IMG/VR virus record: IMGVR_UViG_3300020021_000054 | Location: 1 to 20,875 of that record | Source of the DNA: a virus | Reading direction: 5' to 3' (one strand) | DNA length: 20,875 nt | In this document: positions 24-20,409 of the stretch, in pieces | Position numbering within the stretch: position 1 is the stretch's first letter | Layout of the letters: each line of letters opens with the position of its first letter | Program-made: the position numbers and the translations under genes | The notes under the pieces: model-generated | Database searches by the model: none | Told to the model about the DNA's origin: nothing | Seen by the model: only the letters and a program-made list of their open reading frames with translations

Positions 24-140
24 CTAATCCTTTTCATCTTCATAATCTGACCAGCAACAGACAAATTGGACACCATCCTCATAACACAATATATCTGTAC
101 CATCTTTTGGTGCAGAGTTAATTTTCATCCATTCACCCAT
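24..140 (-). CDS. Small phage protein with W-x-x-I-x-x-APKDGT motif (38 aa)
   Basis: A 38-residue reverse-strand frame. The segment W4-M-K-I-N-S-A-P-K-D-G-T-D-I-L18 matches the start of a very common small phage family of unknown function (W-x-P-I-x-T-APKDGTxIL). The rest is short and acidic (ends SDYEDEKD), so it is a shorter member or a truncated one. AAGGTGA lies about 5 nt before the ATG. It follows the Gly-rich repeat gene and precedes another start at 18, so it is part of the leftward operon. Function unknown; the family assignment is from memory of the motif. Confidence 0.6.
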   Translation of the reverse strand: MGEWMKINSAPKDGTDILCYEDGVQFVCCWSDYEDEKD

Positions 141-163
141 CTTCACCTTTCATTTCTGTAAAT

Positions 164-358
164 CTAGCCACTGCCATCGCCATAGCCATCGCCATAGCCA
201 CTGCCATAGCCACTGCCATCGCCATAGCCATAGCCATAGCCATCGCCATCGCCATCGCCATCGCCATAGCCATAGCCATAGCCATAGCCATCGCCATAGC
301 CATAGCCATCGCCATAGCCATAGCCATCGCCATTAGTTCGTAAATCCATTATTTCCAT
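164..358 (-). CDS. Gly-Tyr/Gly-Asp dipeptide-repeat phage protein (64 aa)
   Basis: After a normal N-terminus (MEIMDLRTN) the protein is almost entirely alternating Gly with Tyr, Asp or Ser, encoded by about 26 tandem hexanucleotides of the type GGCTATGGCGAT. I chose this frame over the Ala-Met frame across the same repeats because its ATG has GAGGAA 5 nt upstream and overlaps the end of the preceding gene by 10 nt. Similar GYGYGDG proteins are common in small phage early operons next to the RGW-motif gene found here. Function unknown. Repeat number is likely to vary by slippage. Confidence 0.6.
   Translation of the reverse strand: MEIMDLRTNGDGYGYGDGYGYGDGYGYGYGYGDGDGDGDGYGYGYGDGSGYGSGYGDGYGDGSG
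169..334. repeat. Hexanucleotide tandem repeat (GCCATA/GCCATC)
   Basis: About 27 tandem 6-nt units read GCCATA, GCCATC or GCCACT on the plus strand. All variation is at the last one to three positions of the unit. On the minus strand this encodes the Gly-x dipeptide repeat of the overlapping gene, and in another frame Ala-Met. Because the unit is a multiple of three, gain or loss of units keeps the frame open. Confidence 0.9.
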
Positions 359-2913: not shown

Positions 2914-3769
2914 TCTCACTTATCCTATAATATTGCGTAGGTTTTTTTCTGTAATCGTCTAGATTAACACTTTTTAAGCATTCAATGCTACTGTAATCTA
3001 CAATTCCTTTCTTAAGGCATTTCGAAACTCTAATACCATTACCTTGTGATGATTGACCATCACACATATCTATCAATTCATTGCGTAAACACTCTTCTTT
3101 AGCTTCTAGCAACTTTATCTCAGCCTTAGTCTGTTTCCATATTTCAGCATGTATACGCCATTCTTTAGAGTCTCTTTTGACGAAATCATGGTCTGTTGCG
3201 GGTGGTGGAGTAAAATCCATCATGCAGCGATAGAATTCATGAATCTTCGGCATTATTTCATTTAAAAAATCATCATCTCTTTTTATTTCTATTATGATCA
3301 TATCACCATCCCAATAAGCAGCAAAATACATTTCTCTCATATCTAGGCAATACATTTGCCAGTTCATCTGACAGCGATAAATATCATCTATGATGCCTTG
3401 TTTTGCTTTTTCATAAATCTTTTGAGAGCATTTAATTTCTACGGCTCGCCATTTACGTCTTGATAAACCGTCTAAACTTGCCATTTTCCATTTATCAACA
3501 GAATGAAAAACAACTTCTGGATATAAAACAATCCCAACTTCTTGTATAAATCTGGTTAATGCAATCGGTTCCAATTCAGAACCCCTGCGCATAGACTCGT
3601 TTTCTTGTTGCTGCAGTTCTAATCCTAATTTCTGGTTCCATAATTTTAAAGCAGTACACCAAGGATTGATGCCGATTATTTTACTAATATCGGTTGCCGT
3701 GATACAATTTCGGCGGTGATTTTTCCAAGCAGTGCTTCCTTGCACTGTTATATCGTTTTGATTAATCAT
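2903..3769 (-). CDS. YqaJ / lambda-exonuclease-like recombinase nuclease (288 aa)
   Basis: Probable 5'-3' double-strand DNA exonuclease of the YqaJ family (PD-(D/E)XK fold), which makes single strands for the neighbouring annealing protein. Visible features: GSTAWKNHRRNCITATDISKIIG at the N-terminus, RRGSELEPIA at about 61-70 (family RGxxxEP motif), catalytic-type D100, E111-I-K113, and a conserved Q in QMNWQMY. GAGGTG lies 6 nt before the ATG, and the start overlaps the bet stop as ATGA. The size is close to the family's usual 200-320 aa. The C-terminal 80 residues are charged and helical and may bind the partner. Confidence 0.92.
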   Translation of the reverse strand: MINQNDITVQGSTAWKNHRRNCITATDISKIIGINPWCTALKLWNQKLGLELQQQENESMRRGSELEPIALTRFIQEVGIVLYPEVVFHSVDKWKMASLDGLSRRKWRAVEIKCSQKIYEKAKQGIIDDIYRCQMNWQMYCLDMREMYFAAYWDGDMIIIEIKRDDDFLNEIMPKIHEFYRCMMDFTPPPATDHDFVKRDSKEWRIHAEIWKQTKAEIKLLEAKEECLRNELIDMCDGQSSQGNGIRVSKCLKKGIVDYSSIECLKSVNLDDYRKKPTQYYRISENET

Positions 3770-4587
3770 TCTAACACCTCAACTTCATCACCCTTGATGG
3801 CCATTTCTTTTTCTAACAAAATTGATTGATTGTGTTTATATCTTTCAACCAAAAGTCCTCTAATCCAATCATATTGTGAATAATATAAATCTAAAATATC
3901 TTTAACTTTAAATTTATTCATTATAACAGATATGATGCCTTTCTTTGCATCTTCGGAACAGCCTTCAAATAACTGCATAAGTTCATCTCTCTGTTTTTCG
4001 TCTAAAGACATTAAAAGTTTAGGTTGATTATCTGAAATGTAAAGCGGTTTTACATGATCAGCTTTATCCGCCTGATCCATTTCTTCTTGTCCATATAATC
4101 CGCTCATTTCAGCAGGGAAACTTTTACGTAAAGCTAAACATTCAGCACATTTACTTAACATAGCTCTTGGCATTTTCTTCCATAGGGGAGATCCTGCATT
4201 ATATTCATTAAAGCAAGCGTTGGCTGAAACTTCATGCCAAGTCCCATCTTTTGTCTGTTTCATTACATATGATGTAGCTGAAATCAAATTACCATTCTTA
4301 TCATATTCGAAAGTTGGCTCTTTTCCTGGCGCATATTTACCAGTTCTATCAGCTATCAAACGAAATCCATCAACACTAGTTTGAATAGTTCTTTGTCCAC
4401 CGCGTGGAACAGAGTAAATTTGTTTGGCAAAAGGATCAAGCCCTGATCTTTGGCAAGCCATTAAAAAGAACTGCAGTTCTTCATTGGTTGCACCTTTGCA
4501 AATGCTATTTTTGATAAGATCAACCTGCTCATTACTAAAATGTGATGTTGCAGGTTGAAATTTTTCTATTTTTGCTAATGTTGTCAT
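3766..4587 (-). CDS. bet: Bet/RecT-family single-strand annealing protein (273 aa)
   Basis: Phage recombination protein of the Bet/RecT superfamily; it anneals complementary single strands made by the downstream nuclease. Diagnostic residues: LIKNSICKGATNEELQFFLMACQRSGLDPFAKQIY (about 24-58), then an RTIQTSVDGFRLIADRTGKYAPG core (about 66-88), SPLWKKMPRAMLSKCAECLALRKSFP, and GLYGQEEM. The length is normal for Bet. The coding sequence contains a perfect 7-bp dyad at 4037-4055 that recurs near-identically at 19997-20015. Start at 4587 with a weak AAAAGA upstream; it is preceded by a 24-nt gap after the 112-aa gene. Confidence 0.95.
   Translation of the reverse strand: MTTLAKIEKFQPATSHFSNEQVDLIKNSICKGATNEELQFFLMACQRSGLDPFAKQIYSVPRGGQRTIQTSVDGFRLIADRTGKYAPGKEPTFEYDKNGNLISATSYVMKQTKDGTWHEVSANACFNEYNAGSPLWKKMPRAMLSKCAECLALRKSFPAEMSGLYGQEEMDQADKADHVKPLYISDNQPKLLMSLDEKQRDELMQLFEGCSEDAKKGIISVIMNKFKVKDILDLYYSQYDWIRGLLVERYKHNQSILLEKEMAIKGDEVEVLE
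4036..4058. repeat. Dyad motif copy 1: ATGTAAA-GCGGT-TTTACAT
   Basis: A perfect 7-bp inverted repeat with a 5-nt centre. A 23-nt stretch including it recurs with a single mismatch at 19996-20018, and 16 nt of it recur in reverse orientation at 17093-17108. Here it lies inside the bet gene, where it encodes HVKPLY. Probably a protein-binding site. Confidence 0.6.
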
Positions 4588-5941: not shown

Positions 5942-6826
5942 ATGTCAAATCAATCACAAAATATCTCACCATCAGAACTTTACGCAATACATTTAGAAAA
6001 TGAAGAACCTTCATTTTATTGTATGATTCCTCACTTAATTTCTTATCTTACATACGATTTTATAGACAAAGACGGCAAAAAAGAGGTTAGAAAACTGAGC
6101 TTAGTGGCTAGAGAATTATATCGAGTAATCAAACAAACGGCAGGGGACAGGGGTAAATGTTGGCGAGATACAGATGGATTAGCCGAGCTTTGTGGCATGT
6201 CAGTAGGTTCTGTGGTTAATGCTAAAAAAGAACTCCAACAAAATTTCCATCAACTCAACAACACTCCTTTAATAACAGTCGTCGAATCTAAAAAAGCAAA
6301 CTTCAAAAACGACAAATGCGTCAATAAATCCCCAAGTCACATCATTACCGTTAAAAATATTTGGGGGTTCAATAACGCCTACATGTCAACTTTAAAATAT
6401 CAAAAAGTAGAGGCAGGTTCACCACATGAATCTGCCCAAGGGGAGGCAGGTTCACCACATGAATCTGCCCAAGGGGAGGCAGGTTCACCACATGAACCTA
6501 ATAACAACCCTAACAATAAAAACCCTTTGTCTAAAGAACAACAACCCACGGCTTGCGCCGATTCTGTTGTTGGTTGTTTTTTAAATAAAGAAGATTCTGT
6601 TTTGGTTGATAAAAAAGCGCGTGCTTGCAATTGGTTTTTGCAAATAGGATGCGATCTTAAAACAGCTACTTATTTTGTCGAAACTTATTCTTCTGATGAT
6701 ATTTATCAAGCATCCATGTACACTGAACAGCAACTAAAAAAGAAAAAAGCTAAGAACCAAACAATTCCTAACATTATAGGCTATCTTAGAAACACACTTA
6801 AAAATAGATACTGGGAGAAAAAATGA
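5942..6826 (+). CDS. O-like replication initiation protein with internal origin repeats (294 aa)
   Basis: Probable phage replication initiator that binds its own gene. Residues about 45-115 (LSLVARELYRVIKQTAGDRGKCWRDTDGLAELCGMSVGSVVNAKKEL) form a winged-helix domain like those of O-type and HTH_36 replication proteins. The middle is a linker containing two and a half copies of the peptide EAGSPHESAQG, translated from 33-bp DNA iterons. The C-terminal part (CNWFLQIGCDLKTATYFVETY...IPNIIGYLRNTLKNRYW) is helical and may contact a helicase loader. A Shine-Dalgarno AGGGA precedes the ATG. No P/DnaC-like loader gene follows. Confidence 0.8.
   Translation: MSNQSQNISPSELYAIHLENEEPSFYCMIPHLISYLTYDFIDKDGKKEVRKLSLVARELYRVIKQTAGDRGKCWRDTDGLAELCGMSVGSVVNAKKELQQNFHQLNNTPLITVVESKKANFKNDKCVNKSPSHIITVKNIWGFNNAYMSTLKYQKVEAGSPHESAQGEAGSPHESAQGEAGSPHEPNNNPNNKNPLSKEQQPTACADSVVGCFLNKEDSVLVDKKARACNWFLQIGCDLKTATYFVETYSSDDIYQASMYTEQQLKKKKAKNQTIPNIIGYLRNTLKNRYWEKK
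6411..6500. repeat. 33-bp iterons within the O-like gene (probable replication origin)
   Basis: Copies start at 6411, 6444 and 6477 with an exact 33-bp period; the third is cut short after about 20 nt. Each full unit holds an imperfect palindrome, GGCAGGTTCA-CCACA-TGAATCTGCC. The truncated third forms a perfect AGGTTCA-CCACA-TGAACCT. An A-rich, G-poor stretch follows. Iterons, palindromic units and a neighbouring AT-rich region inside the initiator gene match the lambda ori arrangement. Confidence 0.75.
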
Positions 6827-11451: not shown

Positions 11452-12033
11452 ATGAAGTTATGCAGGACGTGTAATAAAGAATTTAATTACGCTGGTTTTT
11501 ATTGTCGATGGTGTGGTCAAAAAGCGAGAGAAGAAAAAAGAAAAGGTATGCCTTGCAAATCTTGTAATCAGGTTAAACCGATTAATAATAAAACTTTTCA
11601 TTTGTGTTCTACATGTTATATTAAAAAACGTGTAGACAGTAATCCTTTCTACAAAGAACAAAAACGTATTAGATGTTTTAAGTCTAGAAGAAGATGTAGA
11701 GGACAAGATCCTGATGCTCCATTAATGAAAAGAAAAAGTGGAGAGGGTTCTTTGGATAAAAACGGATATTTACAAATAACAAGATTAGGTCATCCAAATT
11801 GTACAAGTAATACAGGGAGAATAGCAGAACACACCTTAATTATGTCTGAGCATTTAGGTAGACCGTTAAAAAAGGGGGAATCAGTACACCATAAGAATGG
11901 TATTCGTGATGATAATAGAATAGAAAACCTTGAATTGTGGCATAAAGGTCAGCCAGCAGGGCAAAGAGTCGATGATAAGATTGCATGGGCTGTTGAATTC
12001 TTAACAAATTATGGGTATGAATGCAAAAAGTAG
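11452..12033 (+). CDS. Free-standing HNH homing endonuclease, copy 1 (193 aa)
   Basis: Four C-x2-C knuckles in the first 55 residues (C4/C7, C18/C21, C35/C38, C52/C55) form two zinc-binding units. [13 protein letters not shown] segment follows, then the HNH core with [22 protein letters not shown] and the QPAGQR tail. The family cuts DNA near its own insertion site and spreads by repair. GGAG lies 6-7 nt before the ATG. It stands between terL and a small gene with its own promoter. A 48-nt stretch over the HNH motif is identical to copy 2 at 17647-17694. Confidence 0.92.
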
Positions 12034-16212: not shown

Positions 16213-16362
16213 TATTTTTTCAATCTTTTCATCTAAACAAAGACACCCTAAAGGCACATCAGCAATAGATTGTTTTAGCATTTTATTATAATTTTCTAGA
16301 CTTTCAAGTAATTTCTTGTTAATTTCTGTTGCATCGCTAATAGTCAATTTAACTTCAGTCAT
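16084..16362 (-). CDS. RNA polymerase alpha-CTD-like protein on the reverse strand (92 aa)
   Basis: Residues about 35-90 (ADVPLGCLCLDEKIEKILFKNGF, then VFDLIDTDFTKIKGLGIIRIGKITASLNQFL) follow the pattern of the alpha subunit C-terminal domain: DLxLS, an N-x-L-like helix, a DL helix, then the K-x-LGxxxxxxI helix-hairpin-helix. The first 30 residues are helical and could dimerise. It may bind DNA or RNA polymerase partners. GGA lies 6 nt before the ATG, and an extended -10 (TGGTATATT, 16390..16382) lies just upstream inside the scaffold gene. It overlaps the rightward gene by 129 nt. Confidence 0.55.
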   Translation of the reverse strand: MTEVKLTISDATEINKKLLESLENYNKMLKQSIADVPLGCLCLDEKIEKILFKNGFRRVFDLIDTDFTKIKGLGIIRIGKITASLNQFLSIS

Positions 16363-16372
16363 AGGAGTCCAT

Positions 16373-17095
16373 TTGAATAATAATATACCAGAAAATATAC
16401 AAGAACCTAAAAAAGAGCAAGTTCAAAATGATCCACAACAAGGAACGGTTAGCCCATCTATTACAAATGACATCGTGGAAGATAAAAATTGGGCAGCAAT
16501 TAGAGAACAGCGGAAAGCAGATAGAAAAGCACGTGAAGAGGCGGATAAAAGAGCAGCAGATAAGGCAGCAGAAGCTTCAGCATTGAGGGCTGCTTTAGAG
16601 GCTATAACTAATAAGCCACAAATCCAGCAACAATATGGCGATCAAGAAGAAACTGAAGATGAACGTTTAAATAAACGTGTAGATGCTATTATAAAGCAAA
16701 GGGAAGCTGAATATCACAGAAAGAATGAAGAAAGAGAGCAGATAGAATTTCCAACACGATTACGACAAGCGATGCCAGATTTTGATAAGGTGTGTCATGC
16801 TGAAAATGTAGATTATTTAGAATATCATTATCCTGAACTTGTAAAACCATTTTCACATATGCCTAAAGGTTATGACTATTGGGAATCAATTTATAAACTT
16901 ACAAAAAAATTAGTACCTAATCTTGATCATAAGCAAGATCAAAAACGTATGGAACAGAATCTAGCAAAGCCAGGTAGTATATCAAGCACAGGAACTACAC
17001 AAGGTCAAGGAATAGCAGCACCTTCTAGATTGACAGAAGCGCAAAAGGCGGCTAATTGGGAAAGAATGCAAAGAGATAGAAAAGGGTTGAGATAA
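16373..17095 (+). CDS. Capsid scaffolding protein (240 aa)
   Basis: Probable internal scaffold for prohead assembly. An acidic, Pro/Gln-rich N-terminus is followed by a long charged coiled coil (about 38-130: AAIREQRKADRKAREEADKRAADKAAEASALRAALE and KRVDAIIKQREAEYHRKNEEREQIEF), then RLRQAMPDFDKVCHAENVDYLEYHYPEL and a basic C-terminus (AANWERMQRDRKGLR), as in scaffolds that contact the capsid. I start at TTG 16373, which has AGGAG 5 nt upstream; an upstream ATG at 16316 lies in antisense coding DNA with no site. It precedes the capsid gene, interrupted by an HNH gene. Confidence 0.8.
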   Translation: MNNNIPENIQEPKKEQVQNDPQQGTVSPSITNDIVEDKNWAAIREQRKADRKAREEADKRAADKAAEASALRAALEAITNKPQIQQQYGDQEETEDERLNKRVDAIIKQREAEYHRKNEEREQIEFPTRLRQAMPDFDKVCHAENVDYLEYHYPELVKPFSHMPKGYDYWESIYKLTKKLVPNLDHKQDQKRMEQNLAKPGSISSTGTTQGQGIAAPSRLTEAQKAANWERMQRDRKGLR

Positions 17096-17116
17096 AACCG
17101 CTTTACATGGTATAAT
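17087..17116 (+). promoter_or_regulatory. Strong promoter with a dyad-family site in the spacer
   Basis: -35 TTGAGA (17087-17092, five of six), 18-bp spacer, extended -10 TGG-TATAAT (17111-17116, perfect). The spacer consists of TAAAACCGCTTTACAT plus GG. These 16 nt are the reverse complement of the motif at 4037-4052. A protein bound there would block RNA polymerase. Confidence 0.75.
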
Positions 17117-17122
17117 ATTCGC

Positions 17123-17180
17123 AAGTACGCCTAGGAGGCATCCGAAAAACTCATCCTGAAGTTCGGCGTACTTTCTTTTC
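17123..17180 (+). ncRNA. Structured leader or small RNA starting at the promoter
   Basis: The predicted transcript begins at a 9-bp stem AAGTACGCC (17123-17131)/GGCGTACTT (17165-17173) with a 33-nt loop, followed by TTCTTTTC. The loop offers CCGAA, which can pair with TTCGG and compete with the outer stem. It is either a short RNA ending at a weak terminator or a 5' stabilising hairpin for the HNH-capsid transcript. Confidence 0.5.
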
Positions 17181-17205: not shown

Positions 17206-17790
17206 ATGTCTAAAAAAATCAAGACTTGTCAGCATTGTAATAAAATATATTCAAATAAATGTTGTTCAAAGAATTGTTGTTATTCTTGTTATCATTTACT
17301 TGATGAATACGGAACAATTAACCCACCTCACTGGACTAGACAATGCAAACAATGTAAAGAAAATTTTACAAGTAAATGGTGGAAGCAAAAGACTTGTTCA
17401 AAAGAATGTGCTAAAAAAATCCTAATTCATAATAAATTTATTCAATATCGAATTGAAAACAATATTGATTTATCTATACCAAAGAAATTTAAAGCTCCTA
17501 ATGGAAGTGGACATAAAGAACCTCATGGTTATATTTATATTACTAAAATGAGGCATCCTAATGCTCAAAAACATGGAAGAATATATGAACATACATTTGT
17601 AATGTCCGAATACTTAGGGCGTTCATTAATAAAAGGTGAATCAGTTCACCATAAGAATGGTATTCGTGATGATAATAGAATAGAAAACCTTGAACTTTGG
17701 TCAGTAGGTCAACCAGCTGGACAAAGAATAGAAGACAAATTAAAATGGGCTATGAAATTTATAGAACAATACAAGGACTTTAAAAAATAA
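17206..17790 (+). CDS. Free-standing HNH homing endonuclease, copy 2 (194 aa)
   Basis: Same design as the copy at 11452: cysteine knuckles near the N-terminus (C8/C11, later QCKQC and TCSKEC), HGYIYITKMRHPN, then [22 protein letters not shown] and GQPAGQR. The two proteins differ strongly in the zinc-binding half. AGGAG lies 5 nt before the ATG. It separates the scaffold from the capsid gene, a common insertion point for homing genes. It is transcribed from the strong promoter at 17087. Confidence 0.92.
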   Translation: MSKKIKTCQHCNKIYSNKCCSKNCCYSCYHLLDEYGTINPPHWTRQCKQCKENFTSKWWKQKTCSKECAKKILIHNKFIQYRIENNIDLSIPKKFKAPNGSGHKEPHGYIYITKMRHPNAQKHGRIYEHTFVMSEYLGRSLIKGESVHHKNGIRDDNRIENLELWSVGQPAGQRIEDKLKWAMKFIEQYKDFKK

Positions 17791-17937
17791 TTTACATTAA
17801 TCATTAAAATATCATATTGTTAAAATGACTGATCTCTAGAATTCGTCATTCTTCGACTGAAAAGTACCTCGTCCGTACAGCTGTTTTAGTTCACTCGCAA
17901 TGAACATATTATCAACTGTTACCCACGAGGTATTTTT
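17791..17937 (+). promoter_or_regulatory. Capsid gene leader: long hairpin that encloses the ribosome binding site
   Basis: AAAGTACCTCGT (17861-17872) pairs with ACGAGGTATTTT (17925-17936), 12 bp with one G-U, ending one base before the capsid ATG. The capsid Shine-Dalgarno GAGG (17927-17930) is inside this stem. Within the loop are GTTCA-CTCGCAA-TGAAC and a possible ACAG/CTGT pairing. Upstream lie another dyad, AATGAC/GTCATT (17824-17850), and a possible weak promoter (TTTACA, 18 bp, TATTGT). The fold resembles a terminator or a translational switch. Confidence 0.6.
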
Positions 17938-18906
17938 ATGTCATTCCCAACTGGAATCACAAATATTAACAACTTTGCTCCTGAGCTCCCGGTTCAAGCG
18001 GCGGAAGATTTGTTAAGTACTCCCATGTTCAACCTCATACATAGTTTTGGAGTAGATCTACATCACGCCGAATCTTATATCGGTAAAACAACACGTATGT
18101 CACGTTTTGAACGTCTTTCTACCGATGGCGGTCAACTTGACGGAAGCGGTATTGATCCTGCATCTGAAGTACCTGTACGTACAGATATTGATGCAACTAT
18201 GGAAATATACGCTAAATCTATCGTTACTAACGAACAAGTTATTTTGTATGAGAATTCCAAAACTTTAACTAAGTTCACAGCATTGCTTGGACAATGGTTA
18301 AGAGAGAAAGAAGATTTGTTAATGAGAGATTTATTTTCTTCTAGCGTATCTTACATCAATTGTACAGGTGGTACTAACGGAGATCAGCCTTCAAACATTA
18401 GTTTGAATGATATTAATAATATCGAAACTATTTTGTTAGGTAATGATGCTCGTACAATGCTTGTAAGTATTGATGCCATGGATAAGTTTAATACAGGCCC
18501 AACACGTGATGCCTTTATTGCTTTAGCTTCTACTAATCTAACAAACGACTTGCAGAAGGTTCAAGGAGTTCTTTTAAAGAATGCTTACCCTTCACAAGAA
18601 GGTTTAAGACCAGAAGAATATTGTTCTATTTCAAGATTCAGATTCTTTGTTTCTTCAAAAGGTGCCAAGACACCTGGAATTTCTACACTTGGAAGAACAG
18701 TTTATACTATTCCAATGTATGGACTTGAAGCTGCTGCTAAAATTGAACAAAATAGTTATACAGCTGTAGTTGGCTATAGACCGCCATGGGTTGTTTCTTC
18801 TGTCGCACAGAATAGCCAACTTTATGCTAAGTTTGCAATTGCGAGAGCAATTACTAACCAAAACTGGATCTCTGGCTTAAACGCAACAACATTTAGCCCA
18901 TCATAA
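17938..18906 (+). CDS. Major capsid protein, N4-gp56 family (322 aa)
   Basis: Main shell protein, HK97-type fold. The N-terminal part (FAPELPVQAAEDLLSTPMFNLIHSFG), the segment SRFERLSTDGGQLDGSGIDP, and YAKSIVTNEQVILYENSKTLTKFTALLGQWLREKEDLLMRDLF match the N4-gp56-like capsid family. The C-terminal half has GLRPEEYCSISRFRFFVSSKGA and a hydrophobic ending. The length is within the family range of 300-400 aa. GAGG lies 7 nt before the ATG but in a hairpin. It is followed 10 nt later by the next head gene. Confidence 0.9.
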   Translation: MSFPTGITNINNFAPELPVQAAEDLLSTPMFNLIHSFGVDLHHAESYIGKTTRMSRFERLSTDGGQLDGSGIDPASEVPVRTDIDATMEIYAKSIVTNEQVILYENSKTLTKFTALLGQWLREKEDLLMRDLFSSSVSYINCTGGTNGDQPSNISLNDINNIETILLGNDARTMLVSIDAMDKFNTGPTRDAFIALASTNLTNDLQKVQGVLLKNAYPSQEGLRPEEYCSISRFRFFVSSKGAKTPGISTLGRTVYTIPMYGLEAAAKIEQNSYTAVVGYRPPWVVSSVAQNSQLYAKFAIARAITNQNWISGLNATTFSPS

Positions 18907-19957: not shown

Positions 19958-19992
19958 TCCATATCGCCTTAAAAAAGCGATATGGATTTTTT
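19958..19992 (+). terminator. Intrinsic terminator after the decoration-like gene
   Basis: TCCATATCGC (19958-19967), 9-nt loop, GCGATATGGA (19977-19986), then T6. A perfect 10-bp stem; it closes the capsid transcript. Confidence 0.92.
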
Positions 19993-19995
19993 AAC

Positions 19996-20018
19996 AATGT
20001 AAAGCGGATTTACATGAT
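19996..20018. repeat. Dyad motif copy 2 at a start codon: ATGTAAA-GCGGA-TTTACAT
   Basis: Matches the bet copy at 4036-4058 in 22 of 23 positions. It directly follows the terminator; TTAACA (19991-19996) lies just before and CATGAT just after, so it may again lie between promoter boxes. The right arm contains the ATG of the following gene. Confidence 0.65.
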
Positions 20019-20409
20019 AGTACCTAATAATGCAAATACTTACTTACGACCTGTTGTCACAGTACCATCAGCATTGGAAATTACAGATATTACTAGATCT
20101 TTTCCAATGTTAGTGACAACTATAATGACAACAGATCAAGAAAATGTATTTCAACAGAATCAAGTTGTTTCATTGTCAGTTCCCGTTACTTTTGGTATGT
20201 GGCAAGCCAATGGATTAAAAGGCATAATTTTAGATATAAACGTAAACATAATCAGTTTGGCAGTCGATTCAACGCAGTTTGATACCTTCCTTGACCCTAA
20301 TAATGGTGAAATAGCAACTTTATCACCATCAGGTTCACGTAACCTTGAATATAATAACAACACGGCGTTACATGCGCCTTTTAGAAGTTTAAATAACATA
20401 GGAAATTAA
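20014..20409 (+). CDS. One-domain relative of the decoration-like protein (131 aa)
   Basis: Residues about 20-115 repeat the second domain of the preceding 341-aa protein: ITDITRSFP, a VSLSVPVTFGMWQANGLKGIILDIN segment equivalent to FHFSIPFSFGMTELNQVNAEILSVN, and TLSPSGSR equivalent to TASPSGTR. It therefore looks like a partial tandem duplication that became a separate gene. The site before the ATG is weak (AAGCGGA). The start codon lies in the dyad motif. Structural role likely, unproven. Confidence 0.7.
   Translation: MIVPNNANTYLRPVVTVPSALEITDITRSFPMLVTTIMTTDQENVFQQNQVVSLSVPVTFGMWQANGLKGIILDINVNIISLAVDSTQFDTFLDPNNGEIATLSPSGSRNLEYNNNTALHAPFRSLNNIGN

Follow-up and report, generated by a model that had tools for sequence, protein, structure and literature searches.

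A symmetric 19-bp palindrome with a bias towards gene starts recurs in at least three types of phages

A palindrome present in several copies on a phage genome fragment proved to be a real, recurrent and symmetric site that is selected as DNA, is biased towards gene starts and occurs in at least three types of phages. The fragment (the window, 20,875 bases from IMG/VR) carries genes for RecT, a YqaJ nuclease, a helicase, terminase, portal and tail proteins. The consensus derived from related contigs was the symmetric 19-mer ATGTAAAGC-S-GCTTTACAT.

The window contains two 23-bp copies, AATGTAAAGCGGTTTTACATGAT at 4036-4058 and AATGTAAAGCGGATTTACATGAT at 19996-20018, which are identical at 22 of 23 positions, and a stretch of 16 nt at 17093-17108 (TAAAACCGCTTTACAT) that matches 4037-4052 exactly in reverse complement. 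The initial annotation had reported these copies and had placed one in recT coding DNA, one across a start codon and one in a promoter spacer; direct reading confirmed both their positions and their settings (Table 1). Both full copies were one base off the perfect palindrome, displaying T or A instead of C at an inner position of the right arm. Several relatives carried the palindrome at the homologous position of recT, and several at the start of the 131-aa gene, whose Shine-Dalgarno sequence may be the GCGG of site 1. Hairpins were also found in relatives at the place of the terminator-like structure. The third copy, changed at three of the 16 fixed core positions, comes after the stop codon that ends ORF 16316-17095 and takes up the whole 18-nt spacer between the two promoter-like hexamers. 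A degenerate copy was present at the same place of a similar promoter in relative L012, and initiation may thus be controlled at such copies too. In both genomes (window 17087-17165, L012 3129-3215) a leader with the hairpin GCAAGTACGCC..GGCGTACTT came after this promoter, while the next gene differed.

Table 1. Palindrome copies and associated features of the window
Feature	Position	Strand	Description
Site 1	19997..20015	.	ATGTAAAGCGGATTTACAT; overlaps ATG 20014-20016; same class (start codon within site) in relatives
Site 2	4037..4055	.	ATGTAAAGCGGTTTTACAT; inside recT, minus-strand reading V-K-P-L-Y
Third copy, degenerate	17090..17108	.	Exact 16 nt 17093-17108, in promoter spacer
Promoter-like TTGAGA-N18-TATAAT	17087..17116	+	11/12 matches; contains degenerate copy, precedes HNH gene
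Terminator-like hairpin and T run	19959..19992	+	CCATATCGC/GCGATATGG; directly 5' of site 1; direct reading
131-aa late gene	20014..20409	+	Start codon within site 1; most relatives have a homologue
recT, single-strand annealing protein gene	3766..4587	-	Pfam RecT 4e-30; PHROG 1.7e-43; holds site 2
78-aa Cro-like HTH protein, candidate phage regulator	5011..5247	+	HTH_3 9.3e-6

Pattern scans of IMG/VR detected the perfect palindrome in 80 stretches and the window's own variant in at least 118, whereas a permuted control palindrome of the same make-up gave no match in the same collection. A scan of relatives for the dyad had been proposed earlier, together with the claim that its recurrence was not due to chance. 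In 59 related contigs (2.09 Mb), 52, 96 and 109 occurrences of the 17-bp core were found at zero, one and two mismatches, respectively, against a mean of 0.035 and a maximum of one for 200 permuted palindromes at one mismatch, which bears out that claim; these contigs were gathered partly via the palindrome itself, so that their enrichment merely describes the group, and the unbiased test is the scan of all of IMG/VR with the control palindrome. Within the window, a loose scan (at most three mismatches) gave 13 matches against 6.7 expected, so weak matches were considered background and only exact copies informative. A de novo search for recurrent dyads recovered the palindrome in most site-bearing genomes, in which one to seven copies were dispersed over about 38 kb. 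Of the 160 fetched site-bearing loci, 113 contained a structural gene typical of the window's lineage, and nearly all others shared some gene with this lineage. To judge from their identifiers, none of the site-bearing contigs from the pattern search was an isolate genome, and a literature search with the literal palindrome sequence gave no match.

Comparison of the coding copies indicated that the palindrome is selected as DNA. Of the 167 distinct sites, 112 lay outside ORFs of 80 aa or more and 55 within them; the latter were read in two frames, as VK[PRQ]LY (37/55) and CKAALH (16/55), and were spread across many gene families. The peptide VKPLY occurred 18 times in all proteins of the 59 contigs and was written GTA-AAR-CCG-CTT-TAC in 16 of these, against 0.26 % expected from codon usage. 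Conservation of the peptide VKPLYI in RecT was considered as an explanation and rejected, since RecT proteins without the palindrome also lacked the linker peptide and codon choice was forced. An annealing protein unrelated to RecT bore the site-encoded peptide in its own linker. The portal protein of contig C204 shared the peptide YVKPLYN with three relatives that write it with other codons; only C204 displayed the palindrome there, and it harbored three further copies elsewhere.

Sites outside ORFs were concentrated 18-26 bp ahead of start codons, immediately 5' of the Shine-Dalgarno sequence, or included the start codon (distance 8). This anchoring (31 of 42 sites) exceeded the 22 expected from random placement in the same gaps (P 0.0005). 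Divergent intergenic gaps contained a single site against 10.3 expected (P 2e-4), and convergent gaps contained 13, about the expected number. Sites that include the start codon formed a consistent class with a central G in 13 of 16 cases and an almost constant 5' half, and their sequences suggest that GCGG may act as ribosome-binding site in this class. Avoidance of divergent gaps and clustering before gene starts fit a gating of transcribed DNA better than a classical promoter operator.

Three unrelated types of phages bore the palindrome, namely the window's lineage, C204-type phages and contractile-tail phages. C204-type phages possess another terminase and portal, and have fibre, replication and methylase genes in common with the window's lineage. 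In contractile-tail phages the palindrome lay between the tail sheath and tail tube genes, a junction that was bare in their relatives. Even close relatives may be devoid of the palindrome, and the portal tree displayed at least eight changes of state; four genomes (G027, G040, G020 and G018) seem to have regained it within a mostly site-free clade. Alternative dyads in site-free relatives were limited to the two-copy GTGTAACGCGTTACAC in G012, as another candidate, ATGAAAGACTTTCAT in G015, looked protein-coding and was discarded. A 57-bp tandem repeat with one palindrome copy per unit was observed at the end of contig C204 (positions 1-125 of locus L367 in G068).

The most likely binder, as judged from sequence comparisons, is a homodimeric DNA-binding protein encoded by the host. 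This assignment is favored because unrelated phages use an identical site, because sites come and go, and because no phage gene tracks them. No gene family was specific to the site-bearing genomes among 47 near-complete genomes, which led to rejection of a phage-encoded binder; families were built by BLAST clustering, from which a too divergent phage protein could escape. The strongest association, that of a serine resolvase family (cluster 34, e.g. G013 21292-21873) present in ten of 14 site-free and four of 33 site-bearing genomes, disappeared when the portal tree was allowed for, and it was discarded as following phylogeny. According to the initial annotation, the palindrome could be a sequence-specific binding site linking early and late control, and the Cro-like protein was among the candidate regulators. 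Selection at the DNA level and the presence of the site in both recT, an early gene, and late genes of relatives support the first part of this proposal; a Cro-like phage regulator acting at an operator of the classical kind was not supported.

An operator of a phage-encoded repressor of Cro/CI type, which would silence early and late genes in an immunity-like manner, was indeed quite unlikely. Lambda-type operators are similar 17-bp odd palindromes, the window encodes a Cro-like protein, and the degenerate copies of the window and L012 occupy promoter spacers, all of which would suit such a repressor. The Cro-like family was, however, represented in 12 of the 14 site-free genomes as well as in 22 of the 33 site-bearing ones, no palindrome adjoined its gene, and no gene family tracked the sites regained in G027, G040, G020 and G018. 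The scarcity of sites in divergent regions also speaks against a repressor, as do the identical letters across unrelated phages, since repressor sites diverge with their phages (PMC6550527). A hairpin in 5' leader or coding RNA that controls translation or processing was considered very improbable. The palindrome is able to fold and its copies are located in transcribed DNA, often right before the Shine-Dalgarno sequence or over the start codon; but arm substitutions were mostly unpaired mismatches, compensated pairs were not the rule among the collected sites, and the palindrome was therefore not regarded as an RNA hairpin. The late copy folded no better than shuffled sequence (z -0.6; recT copy z -2.8), the window had no Rfam match, and no orientation was evident from the centre base where sites preceded a start codon by 11-30 bp (18 C and 16 G in gene sense). 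Even less probable was a mobile or recombinogenic short repeat, kept only as microhomology for exchange of modules by RecT. Copies do occur at borders of exchanging modules in phages encoding RecT and YqaJ; conservation, however, was symmetric and ended at about 19 bp, and coding sites were created by synonymous change, which the spread of a repeat would not produce.

The explanation that best accounted for the whole, at somewhat less than even confidence, was a site for a host-protein dimer acting as a stoperator-like roadblock in transcribed phage DNA. The 17-19 bp site TGTAAAGC-S-GCTTTACA would be bound by one homodimeric protein, inferred to be most likely host-encoded, and phages of a shared host group would retain between one and seven copies in their transcribed regions, both in tight gaps right before late-gene starts and within genes of the early and the late class. 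The bound dimer might obstruct moving RNA polymerase, or initiation at the single gene behind the site, and could thereby set the timing or amount of each gene's expression; this roadblock effect is a guess. Some half of the sites are intragenic and 13 occupy convergent gaps, locations at which control of a single gene is not obvious; the bias towards gene starts is partly expected of any site squeezed into short gaps, and the degenerate in-promoter copies fit control of initiation. A somewhat unlikely alternative is a genome-organising or marking site (parS-, MatP- or nucleoid-occlusion-like), bound by a host chromosome protein and allowed anywhere except in promoters. The dispersal of copies, their tolerance in many coding genes, their gain through point mutation at arbitrary places such as the C204 portal gene, the avoidance of divergent regions and the sharing of the site by unrelated phages would all agree with such marking. 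Anchoring to start codons beyond random placement in the same gaps stands against it, as does the lack of such sites in the bacterial genomes scanned, among which the true host was probably not included.

Among known systems, the stoperators of Cluster A mycobacteriophages (L5, Bxb1) and the SAS/ESAS repeats of Cluster K mycobacteriophages were the closest kinds, each differing from the palindrome in a defining feature (symmetry, orientation, phage-specific binder or architecture). Stoperators are dispersed in transcribed DNA, where they are thought to reduce transcription; they are asymmetric 13-bp sites, mostly in one orientation, which are bound by the phage repressor and drift with the phage (PMC6550527). 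The present palindrome likewise recurs at several scattered places of a phage genome, within transcribed DNA. Unlike stoperators, it is symmetric (centre base C 18 : G 16), and unrelated phages display the same letters with apparently no tracking phage gene. SAS and ESAS are repeats of unknown function at the translation starts of a subset of genes, SAS being an asymmetric 13-bp sequence and ESAS a pair of inverted repeats, each of 17 bp, that are 4-13 bp apart (PMC3203893). Placement at translation starts of some genes is shared with the present sites, which differ by being single 19-bp palindromes found also within genes. In Caulobacter and its phage phiCbK, host and phage XRE regulators use similar motifs and the phage encodes its own XRE factor (PMC10688885), unlike the present case in which no phage gene tracks the palindrome. 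Nor were sites found in a divergent promoter region beside a repressor gene, in contrast to Cro/CI operator regions. The TyrR box, TGTAAA-N6-TTTACA, has the same half site; the 5-base spacer with conserved GC..GC encountered here makes the palindrome a different site.

Matches of a few genes to plasmids hint at Chlamydiota as host group. The best plasmid match of RecT was on Simkania pSn (52 % over 166 aa), that of the alternative annealing protein was on a Criblamydia plasmid, and the second-best of the helicase was on a Waddlia plasmid; pSn itself contained no good copy of the palindrome. Two MAGs holding relatives (Bacteroidetes and Nitrospiraceae bins) displayed no site regulon. Many unrelated matches in host DNA had been named beforehand as evidence against a binding site; apart from the genome in whose bin a site-bearing phage contig was placed, none of 117 further genomes of the first MAG's phylum had a site, and this phylum is probably not the host's. 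The lack of a site regulon in this phylum and in the two MAGs counts against the roadblock by a host protein.

The sequences to which phage regulators bind usually diverge along with the phage. Independent gain of an identical site by unrelated phages, even inside genes, would point to strong selection by a common cell partner. It is tentatively proposed, with rather less than even confidence, that the hosts form an uncultivated bacterial group, which may be environmental Chlamydiota, and that one of their regulators or chromosome proteins has become a shared control point for which unrelated phages evolve the same 19-bp site, as a cross-phage regulatory or genome-marking code. Finding this partner would reveal either a new form of host timing of phages or a new anti-phage or genome-handling factor; the palindrome can serve directly as bait and also marks the phages that belong to one host group.

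Other features were noted along the way. A second recurring palindrome, CTCACAATATATTGTGAG, was present near gene starts in G032 (12141 and 32102, near the portal and capsid gene starts) and in G057 (6093). The 322-aa ORF 17938-18906 of the window was called a putative major capsid protein gene, because of its location and its weak similarity to a protein annotated as capsid. It is preceded by a leader of about 110 nt (17830-17937), with a counterpart in the corresponding position of about 80 relatives (alignment A1), which looks like a conserved structured RNA with repeated UUCGC/CCUCG hairpins; many compensatory changes were observed (8/8 predicted pairs), no Rfam match was obtained, and a long-range pairing of ACCUCG with CGAGGU is possible. 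Two related HNH endonuclease genes (11452-12033 and 17206-17790) shared 76 % DNA identity over 185 nt, each lying behind a promoter-like sequence. At the left end of the window (133-345), 6-bp units (GCCATC/GCCATA/GCCACT) formed a long array that reads as Met-Ala or Gly-Asp/Tyr repeats, and three tandem 33-nt repeats at 6405-6503, in a replication-initiator-like gene, encoded repeated AGSPHESAQGE.
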